Below, in pieces: positions 13,586-16,479 of a stretch of DNA of 64,000 nucleotides. Source of the DNA: Rarobacter faecitabidus. GTDB lineage: Bacteria; Actinomycetota; Actinomycetes; Actinomycetales; Cellulomonadaceae. The stretch lies in assembly GCF_006716265.1 (NCBI RefSeq), contig NZ_VFOS01000001.1, forward strand, positions 1,736,001 through 1,800,000. The letters run 5' to 3'. Positions within the stretch are counted from its first letter, which is position 1. Each line of letters starts with the position of its first letter. A model generated the notes under the pieces. The model was not told where the DNA came from, ran no database searches, and saw only the letters and a program-made list of their open reading frames with translations. The translations under genes were made by a program, and so were the position numbers.

Positions 13586-13594
13586 ATTCCGGGT

Positions 13595-13633
13595 GGTGAC
13601 GTCCGACCATCTGACTTCAAGTCGGATGTCACC
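13595..13633 (+). terminator. Hairpin after pta-ackA
   Basis: GGTGACGTCCGAC (13595-13607) pairs with 13621-13633, one pair being a G-U wobble, around a 13-nt loop. It lies 9 nt after the ackA stop. There is no strong T-tract. Confidence 0.5.
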
Positions 13634-13657
13634 CCTAGCCAATCGGTGGATCTCCGG

Positions 13658-13876
13658 CTATGCCTGCCTCGCCCTACGTTTCGCGCGCACGAGGCGCACC
13701 GTCTCTGCGATTCCGAAGACAACCGGTAAGAACAGGGAGTACCAGCCCAAGGGTGAGCCGTAGGCGATCTGCGAAAGAATAGCGCCTGCGATCAGGCCTG
13801 CCACCACTGCGGCAGAAATCCGCCAGAACGCCGAACGTCGATCGAACTCTTCCCTCGAAAACAGTTCACGTAGCAT
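13658..13876 (-). CDS. Small two-helix membrane protein
   Basis: This protein of about 72 residues starts MLRELFSREEFDRRSAFWRI. It has membrane helices at about residues 21-40 and 46-62 and a basic C-terminus (RLVRAKRRARQA). I chose the ATG at 13876 because an SD-like AAAGGG lies 9 nt upstream; an in-frame ATG at 13894 would add six residues. No family is recognised. Transcription converges with pta-ackA. The 140 bases upstream contain no obvious gene. Confidence 0.6.
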   Translation of the reverse strand: MLRELFSREEFDRRSAFWRISAAVVAGLIAGAILSQIAYGSPLGWYSLFLPVVFGIAETVRLVRAKRRARQA

Positions 13877-14011
13877 ATTCGCTGCCCTTTCCATGATTGT
13901 TTACGCGCTCGAAAGAGTATGCCAGTCGGCCTGGTTCCATCCCGCAAGGTACAACGGGTGTCCATATCGCGGATGCGCGCGAATCGCGCTGCCTTACCCG
14001 CGTCGCAAAAA

Positions 14012-14063
14012 CTGCGGCTCACCCGCCCCTTGCCGTTGTCCGGCGCGCGCGGGTGAGCCGCAG
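14012..14063 (-). terminator. Rho-independent terminator of the Ig-like secreted protein gene
   Basis: CTGCGGCTCACCCGC (14012-14026) pairs perfectly with 14049-14063. On the minus strand the stem is followed by TTTTT. It is the second of two tandem hairpins downstream of the minus-strand gene ending at 14121. Confidence 0.7.
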
Positions 14064-14072
14064 AGCTTGTGG

Positions 14073-14110
14073 CCCCACGCTACCGGCGCCGATGCGCCGG
14101 TAGCGTGGGG
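14073..14110 (-). terminator. Strong hairpin directly after the Ig-like secreted protein gene
   Basis: A perfect 17-bp stem (14073-14089 with 14094-14110) with a 4-nt loop starts 11 bases after the stop codon at 14121. It has no T-tract of its own but is followed by a canonical terminator. Confidence 0.6.
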
Positions 14111-14120
14111 ACCGCGAGCG

Positions 14121-15221
14121 TTACTTCTTGGCCTTGACCGTGACCTTCGCGGTCGTCGCCTTGACGACCTTGAACGTTGCCCCCGAAGCCGTGGAGGTGA
14201 CTGACGTCTTGCCTGTCACCAGCGTCGCGGTCAGGTTGGTGTACGAACCGATCTTGAGCGTAGCGGGCAGGCGCAGGGTCGCCGGGTAGGCCGAACCGGA
14301 CTTGACCACCAGTGCCGTGCCGAGGACAGTGTTGCCCGCGCGGAACGTGACAGTCCCGCTTGTCGCGCCCGAGACCGTGGTGCTGATGGTCGCCCGCTTG
14401 GCGGTCACAGACTGGTAGGCCTGCGATGCCTTCGAAAGCACGGGCACGGCCACCTTCACCGTCTCCTCCGGTTCGGGCACAGACGGTGCGGTGACCGTCA
14501 CGGTGACCGCACCGGTGACGCTGTTCGCGTACCATTCGTCACCCGAGTACTTCACGGTCAGCGTGTGGCTGCCTGCCGAGAGCTTGCCGCCACCCAGAGT
14601 GGCGATCGAATCCTCGTCGAGCGTTGCCGACGCCAGCGACTGCGCTCCGTCGAACAGTTCCACCGTGCCCGTTGCGCCTTCGGTGACACCGACCTGGACG
14701 GTCAGCGCATCCTCCGTGCTGAGCTCGGTGGGAACCGCCAGGAAGGCAGTCTCCGATGCCAGCATCACAGCTGACACCACGACCGCGGCCGTGATCGGCG
14801 TGGCGGACACGCTGCCCACCGCGCGCAGGGTGTAACTACCGTCAGCAGTAGCGCGCGGCAACGTGACCACCGTCGAGACTTGCCCGCCGGCATTCGCCGT
14901 AGCGGTCCACTCGTCAGTGAGCGCCGGCACGTGCGTCCAGGAGAACGTCACCGTCTCCTTCGGCGCGAAACCCGTACCGGTGATCGTGGTCGGACGGCCC
15001 GGGTCAACCGAAGCTGGCACGACCAGTGCCGGATCGATCACGGGCGGTGCGGTGACCGTCACGGTTGCCGCCGCGGTCGCGCTGGACGAGTACCATGCGT
15101 CCCCGAGGTACCGCACTGTGATCGAGTGGCTGCCCGCCACGTGGCAGGACGCCAAGGGCAAGACGAAGTGGAAGACCAAGAAGGTTCGCACAAACAAGAA
15201 GGGCATCGGAGCACTCGTCAT
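14121..15221 (-). CDS. Ig-like repeat protein with a 5' end derived from the antisense of another gene
   Basis: The body (from AGSHSITVRYLGDAWY onward) is built of Big_3-like beta-sandwich repeats: the element AGSHSITVRYLGDAWYSS recurs as AGSHTLTVKYSGDEWYAN, and a C-terminal domain ends in VKATTAKVTVKAKK. Normally this would be the 3' part of a larger secreted protein. Upstream of about 15140 the frame continues into the antisense strand of a different gene. That stretch nevertheless has GGAGGG 7 nt before the ATG at 15221, a hydrophobic stretch (MPFLFVRTFLVFHFVLPLA) and a lipobox-like LASC. It is therefore either a truncated gene or a new lipoprotein made by rearrangement. Two hairpins follow the stop. 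Confidence 0.6.
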   Translation of the reverse strand: MTSAPMPFLFVRTFLVFHFVLPLASCHVAGSHSITVRYLGDAWYSSSATAAATVTVTAPPVIDPALVVPASVDPGRPTTITGTGFAPKETVTFSWTHVPALTDEWTATANAGGQVSTVVTLPRATADGSYTLRAVGSVSATPITAAVVVSAVMLASETAFLAVPTELSTEDALTVQVGVTEGATGTVELFDGAQSLASATLDEDSIATLGGGKLSAGSHTLTVKYSGDEWYANSVTGAVTVTVTAPSVPEPEETVKVAVPVLSKASQAYQSVTAKRATISTTVSGATSGTVTFRAGNTVLGTALVVKSGSAYPATLRLPATLKIGSYTNLTATLVTGKTSVTSTASGATFKVVKATTAKVTVKAKK

Positions 15222-15957
15222 AAAGATGCCCTCCAACGCCGTCTCCATCAGCGCCTGGTATCAGGGACGAAAGTGGCACTACCGATCCGCGTACCAAGGC
15301 GCCGTCATATCGCGGAAATACATACCGACAGCGCTTTCCCTGAGTGTCTGTAACTCCCGATCGGATGCGGGAGTCAACTGCAAGGTATCCGTCTCGCTCA
15401 GAGTCAAGAAGAGCAAGAAGTACGCAGGGCTCAAGAACAAGCCGGTCACCGTATCCATCAGCGGATGGAACTCCTCGTACTCGCGCAAATTCGTCCTGAA
15501 GACTAACAAGTCGGGCCAGGCCACCGGCGCCTTCGCCATGCCCAGCGACACAGTCTCCATCTACGCATCCTGGAGCGGGACAAAGAGCCAAGCTCCCCAG
15601 AGCAAGTCGGCGACGGTGTACCTCAACGAGGCGCTGAGCCTCACCCTTGACCGGGCGCGGGCGAGCGACTACTACGGCTGCGCCACGGCGACGGTGACCC
15701 GGCGATCATCCGCGCCGTACGGATACCTGAAGCTGACCTTCTGGGATTCCGACTACGACGATGACAGCGAGACCATCGATCTCCGGAACAACACCTCTCG
15801 CCAGTTCAGGATTCCGTTCTGCGCGCGCAACTGGGAGAGCGAAGATTTCTCGACGAACGTGAAAGTCGCCTGGGTGGACAGCCTCTACAGCAATTGGCCG
15901 ACGACGTACGCCACATCGAACACCGTCACACTGACGGTTCCCGGCGAGGACTGGTAA
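15139..15957 (+). pseudogene. 5'-truncated secreted-protein gene (Lys-rich repeats)
   Basis: From about 15139 the plus strand encodes roughly 272 residues: a Lys-rich repeat (KGKTKWKTKKVRTNKKG, then MPSNAVSISAWYQGRKWHY), a second copy of the same fold (VTVSISGWNSSYSRKFVLK ... AMPSDTVSIYASWSGTK), and a C-terminal domain with two Cys-containing elements (YYGCATATV, IPFCARNW). The internal homology between the two sense copies shows this is the original coding strand. No start codon with an SD, signal peptide or promoter is visible, because the 5' end is replaced by the tail of the opposing gene. The last 32 bases overlap the convergent UPF0303 gene. Confidence 0.65.
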
Positions 15958-16453
15958 GCCAATCGCGCAGGTCGATCAGGCCCTCGAACGCCAGGGTGTG
16001 ATCGACTTCCTGTGACAGACCGGAAACCGCCACAACCCCAACCAGCCCGACCCCGTCGACATGGATCGGGAACGCGCCACCGTGGATGACGTAGTCGAGC
16101 GGATCGAGCCCGCGATAGGCATAGAACTCCGCCTCGGTGCGCGTGGTGTTGCGGCGTCCGGCGCGCAGCGATGCCATGCCGAGGCGCTCCACGGTGTTGA
16201 TCTTGCGACGGATCCAGAACTCGTTGTCGAGAACTGTCTCCTCACCGGCGAGCAGGAAGGCCTGACGGCGACCGTGACGCACGCTCACCGTGATCTTCGG
16301 CGCGAGATCGCTCGACAGCTCGACGATGCGCCTGCCGAGCCAGTGAGCATCGGGCACGGAGAAGCGAGGTAGCACCGCTTCTCGTTCCTGCGTCTCGATG
16401 ACCTCGGCGGTGAGTTCACTCCAATCAGACTTGTGCAGATCGATCGTTCCCAT
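15926..16453 (-). CDS. UPF0303 family (heme-degrading-like domain) protein
   Basis: This 175-residue soluble protein matches the UPF0303/DUF336 family: WLGRRIVELSSDLAPKITVSVR, ETVLDNEFWIRRKINTVER, GLDPLDYVIHGGAFPIHVDG and GLVGVVAVSGLSQEVDH. The biochemical role is unsettled; relatives have been called heme-degrading or GlcG-like. An SD-like AAGGGG precedes the ATG. The last codons (about 10) overlap the convergent truncated gene, so the native C-terminus may end near LRDWLTS and have been extended by a rearrangement. It lies 26 bases downstream of ptsI on the same strand. Confidence 0.85.
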   Translation of the reverse strand: MGTIDLHKSDWSELTAEVIETQEREAVLPRFSVPDAHWLGRRIVELSSDLAPKITVSVRHGRRQAFLLAGEETVLDNEFWIRRKINTVERLGMASLRAGRRNTTRTEAEFYAYRGLDPLDYVIHGGAFPIHVDGVGLVGVVAVSGLSQEVDHTLAFEGLIDLRDWLTSPRREPSV

Positions 16454-16479
16454 GCGTCACCCCTTCGTGAGAGAGTCCG

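Follow-up and report, generated by a model that had tools for sequence, protein, structure and literature searches.

Among the described systems, the closest to the locus studied here are the GH92 alpha-mannosidases of the same bacterial family that carry CBM6, FIVAR and Big_3 domains. Three of them are encoded by intact genes, with lengths of 2160-2345 aa, in G003 (a congener), G035 and G064 (Cellulomonas sp. HZM). Their full-length layout consists of an N-terminal export region followed by GH92N, GH92, three CBM6, FIVAR and Big_3_5 domains, and hairpins of 15-20 bp are also present 3' of their stop codons. As regards the arrangement of the genes, two other kinds of system offer a comparison: the pseudogenes left by a deletion across a divergent gene pair, and the invertible surface-protein loci, such as shufflons and loci with invertase-driven phase variation. 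The window analysed here is a stretch of 64 kb (positions 1736001-1800000 of contig C1 of genome G000; the contig measures 1.83 Mb and the genome 2.80 Mb in 7 contigs), in which two open reading frames diverge near position 15138. The stop codon of the minus-strand frame (A) is at 14121 and that of the plus-strand frame (B) at 15957. The elements of this region are the following:

14073-14110, minus strand: strong hairpin directly 3' of the stop codon of A, probable native 3' end.
14121-15138, minus strand: remnant A, tail (TIG-like and Big_3_5) of a secreted protein of the GH92 alpha-mannosidase type.
Between 15138 and about 15141, no strand: junction between A and B, within the 8-base palindrome CCACGTGG (15137-15144).
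15139-15957, plus strand: putative remnant B, Lys-rich Ig-like tail with at least two degenerate repeats, signal peptide absent, orphan.

The comparison of A with the GH92 alpha-mannosidases revealed an alignment of its whole length with their C-terminal TIG/Big_3 region, at 46-60% identity. The best matches are the C-terminal parts of the large ORFs of G064 (E 9e-95) and G035 (E 6e-93), both 58% identical, followed by that of G003 (46%, E 2e-72); A resembles the genes of another genus more closely than those of its congeners. From the junction to the stop codon, A codes for 338 residues. Given the size of its relatives, about 1900 N-terminal residues are gone, and with them the signal peptide, the CBM6 and FIVAR domains and the GH92N and GH92 catalytic domains. 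Neither catalytic domain was detected by domain search in 14121-15138, and both are present in the orthologues. The first 29 residues of A match the 88-position Big_3_5 profile at its positions 60-88 only, so that A opens in the middle of a domain. A complete second copy of Big_3_5 inside A gives the end point at the DNA level: repeat D1, whose copies lie at 14468-14577 and 15029-15138, ends at 15138, identity between the copies being 16/20 bases at 15119-15138 vs 5/20 at 15139-15158. A stops inside a domain, as expected for a pseudogene derived by deletion.

At its other extremity, A lacks the Lys-rich C-terminal domain of about 80 aa that is seen in 7/7 aligned relatives, and it is therefore shortened at both ends. 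The relatives continue past FKVVKATT... into this domain and A stops at KVTVKAKK. The hairpin of the GH92 alpha-mannosidase genes has been kept by A. Because of this resemblance to the orthologues, the 3' end of A is likely to be native, and an internal in-frame deletion would have removed the last domain. Such a deletion between Lys-rich stretches, at 14121-14147, would explain the missing domain.

B is likely to be truncated at its 5' end as well, judging from its codon usage, a weak repeat similarity and the missing signal peptide; since B has no intact homologue, this truncation is deduced rather than demonstrated. The first 28 codons of B show a mean ln RSCU of 0.26, against 0.22 for the rest of B and 0.018 for the opposite strand. 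Codon usage near the junction being like that of the rest of B, plus-strand coding appears to reach the junction, at 15139. No signal peptide was seen by eye at any start in the B frame. The B1 and B2 repeats are related (score 63, reached by none of 1000 shuffles, maximum 55), the similarity of the third part of B to the other parts is not significant, and the middle part of B gives a weak Big_3_5 match (E 2e-4, under the curated cut-off). The structure predicted for B with no alignment is uninformative (pLDDT 42.6). Searches of 222 genomes of the family and a peptide-pattern scan of GTDB 220 gave no relative of B, and the assembly holds no second copy. A single marginal match (E 8.9e-4, 97 residues), from a search of 395 genomes of the class, was set aside. 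Phages and plasmids gave no match either, and an origin of B from them was rejected.

The junction of two head-to-head gene tails is confirmed on the side of the minus-strand gene and less firmly established on that of the plus-strand ORF. Its position at about 15138-15141, inside the palindrome, is the one given by the initial annotation, in which both genes were described as 5'-truncated. This description holds for A, in view of its intact relatives and its mid-domain start, and with less strength for B. The homology of each body to its own repeats had been said to stop at the junction: this is correct for A, but in B the similarity between B1 and B2 begins only at residue 16, that is 15 codons (~45 nt) away. 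The palindrome had also been taken as short inverted homology marking the event, and it carries no weight in this respect. The window contains CCACGTGG three times and 389 8-base palindromes in all (1 per 165 bases), and a palindrome touching a given point is unremarkable at such a frequency. As the fold of the junction is also ordinary (z = 0.16), this palindrome was rejected as a recombination site. No match to a sigma-70-like promoter was found between A and B, which is weak evidence for an actinobacterium.

The junction lies in a larger block that separates the housekeeping genes ackA and ptsI:

13586-16479, no strand: insert of about 2.9 kb between ackA and ptsI, absent from two congeners.
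13658-13894, minus strand: 78-aa ORF, no confident family match (Pfam: nothing above cut-off).
15926-16453, minus strand: HbpS-like (PF03928) gene, convergent with B and overlapping its last 32 nt.

The insert contains the 78-aa ORF, A, B and the HbpS-like gene. In G001 and G003, which are of the same genus and are both of the congeners that allowed the comparison, ackA adjoins ptsI, the alignable ends being separated by 187 and 130 bp, respectively. A gain of the block by this lineage is the best reading. The 78-aa ORF, which looks like a small membrane protein, has no match in the other loci compared. A relative of the HbpS-like gene is carried elsewhere by G003 and none was found by search in G001. 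The last ~8 residues of this gene differ from those of the G003 homologue, and a further junction is possible at 15926-15957.

These results are probably best explained by a deletion scar in a gained divergent gene pair. The lineage would have gained, between ackA and ptsI, a block with a large secreted GH92 alpha-mannosidase gene on the minus strand, a second large secreted-protein gene divergent from it on the plus strand, and the HbpS-like gene alongside. A single deletion, running from within a Big_3 domain of the first gene to a point within the second, would then have taken both 5' parts and anything in between, leaving two start-less tails head-to-head. A separate, smaller in-frame deletion would have deprived the mannosidase tail of its last domain. 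One deletion in a divergent pair is favoured because the arrangement needs just one event. The truncation of A, the insert and the lack of an orthologous-type A head in the assembly are established, and the divergent ancestor, the single deletion, the truncation of B and a loss of function of both remnants are inferred. Both are still open frames, and the event should therefore be recent or the frames kept. The intact parental divergent arrangement was seen in no genome, and independent pieces joined by several events would look alike, which counts against the deletion. Separate, already truncated fragments could in this way have been assembled here without any divergent ancestor in place. The block is indeed an insert, the closest genes to A are those of another genus (58-60%), the orphan B has a lower G+C than the window (0.592 vs 0.662) and the relative of the HbpS-like gene lies elsewhere in G003; however, more events are needed, neither a transposase nor a repeat was noticed at the ends of the insert, and such a series of insertions is unlikely.

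The fate of the missing heads bears on the other explanations. A search of the own genome with the G035 orthologue's GH92 head matched other GH92-type genes, of which the nearest has 49% identity; those examined are long ORFs with C-terminal parts of their own. The assembly holds no orphan GH92 head of the orthologous type, in a search that a non-GH92 head of A would escape. No half Big_3 domain ending where A begins was detected among the 69 candidates, all scored, obtained by searching the own genome with A, and neither a second nor an inverted copy of the junction, nor a reciprocal junction, occurs elsewhere in the genome. Two candidates for the missing head of A, at C1:1689-1693k and C2:134.9-136.5k, were rejected because each is a complete gene that has an N-terminal region and a tail of its own. 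The genome also contains many very large secreted GH92-type genes (frames of 1468-2217 aa), mostly on contig C5, at sites that include C5:28-68 kb and 124-138 kb. This large set points to a specialist in the degradation of alpha-mannan, such as that of yeast walls.

Of the events proposed by the initial annotation (inversion, deletion or assembly chimera), the deletion fits best. After an inversion, the two missing 5' halves would be joined to each other elsewhere, and no decapitated partner came out of the searches made in the own genome with the GH92 head or the tail; as no orthologous-type head of A, no matching half domain and no second copy of B were found in the assembly, an inversion or a simple chimera of loci present in the assembly is unsupported. 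A chimera, in which the two tails would not be adjacent in the cell, could be suspected since A is a member of a family of long, repeat-rich genes and since the end of one contig, C5, falls in such a tail. There, at C5:181519-181746, the contig ends within the tail of another Lys-rich secreted gene, next to a glycine riboswitch and genes resembling the glycine cleavage system. The head of A is wholly missing, however, and a misjoin alone would not delete 5 kb. Moreover, 83 kb separate the junction from the closest contig end, and 5 of the 7 contigs chain by overlaps of 512-3538 bp at 99.9-100% identity (C1-C3, C2-C5, C2-C6 and C3-C6). Such overlaps are unusual for a short-read graph assembly, which suggests that the assembly was made from long reads, and a chimera is quite unlikely. 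The overlapping contigs could be merged as C1-C3-C6-C2-C5. An inversion between sites in both genes, reversible or fixed, which would have the heads joined elsewhere, agrees with the head-to-head geometry and the palindrome at the junction, but 8-base palindromes are frequent, the junction has no second or inverted copy and neither an orthologous-type head of A nor the matching half domain was found in the assembly, making it very unlikely.

The junction has a further consequence for the reading frame of A, which crosses the junction and continues into the antisense of B:

15138-15221, minus strand: new 5' end of the A frame, with ATG at 15221, GGAGG upstream and the peptide MTSAPMPFLFVRTFLVFHFVLPLASC, which ends in the lipobox LASC; antisense of B.

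The ATG is located 84 nt upstream and is preceded by GGAGG at normal spacing. The start codon with its ribosome-binding site, the hydrophobic stretch and the lipobox, which are the features of a lipoprotein gene as defined after seeing the sequence, are all present. A comparable lipoprotein-like start appeared in 0.035-0.075% of 20,000 head-to-head joints simulated from the gene bodies of the window, and one accompanied by a ribosome-binding site in 0-0.005%. The hydrophobic stretch is expected, because Lys-rich codons read in this register give Phe and Leu in antisense: AAG codons taken backwards correspond to these two residues. The new N-terminus shows no sign of selection, its mean ln RSCU being 0.018 vs 0.25-0.48 in reference genes, and 4 of its 4 Leu codons are the rare TTG. 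The new start and its lipoprotein-like signal peptide probably arose by chance. That the deletion made a working gene, in which the Big_3 tail would be exported as a lipoprotein with a signal peptide born by overprinting, is a highly improbable reading of these sequence features. Use of the new start would provide a clear example of a signal peptide derived from the antisense of a Lys-rich gene.

Compared with the known systems, the locus shares with invertible surface-protein loci the head-to-head position of surface-type coding pieces, but differs from them in that no second copy of the junction, reciprocal arrangement or adjacent recombinase was noticed. The likeness to the pseudogenes formed by deletion across a divergent pair goes further, with two opposite 3' parts, no reciprocal piece and no sigma-70-like promoter match; unlike in these pseudogenes, the parent arrangement is here a putative one. 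The best reading is an ordinary gene decay after the gain of an insert, with no sign of a genetic switch. The importance of the locus is mostly slight: a candidate switch is struck off, and the decay of large, repeat-rich secreted enzymes is highlighted.
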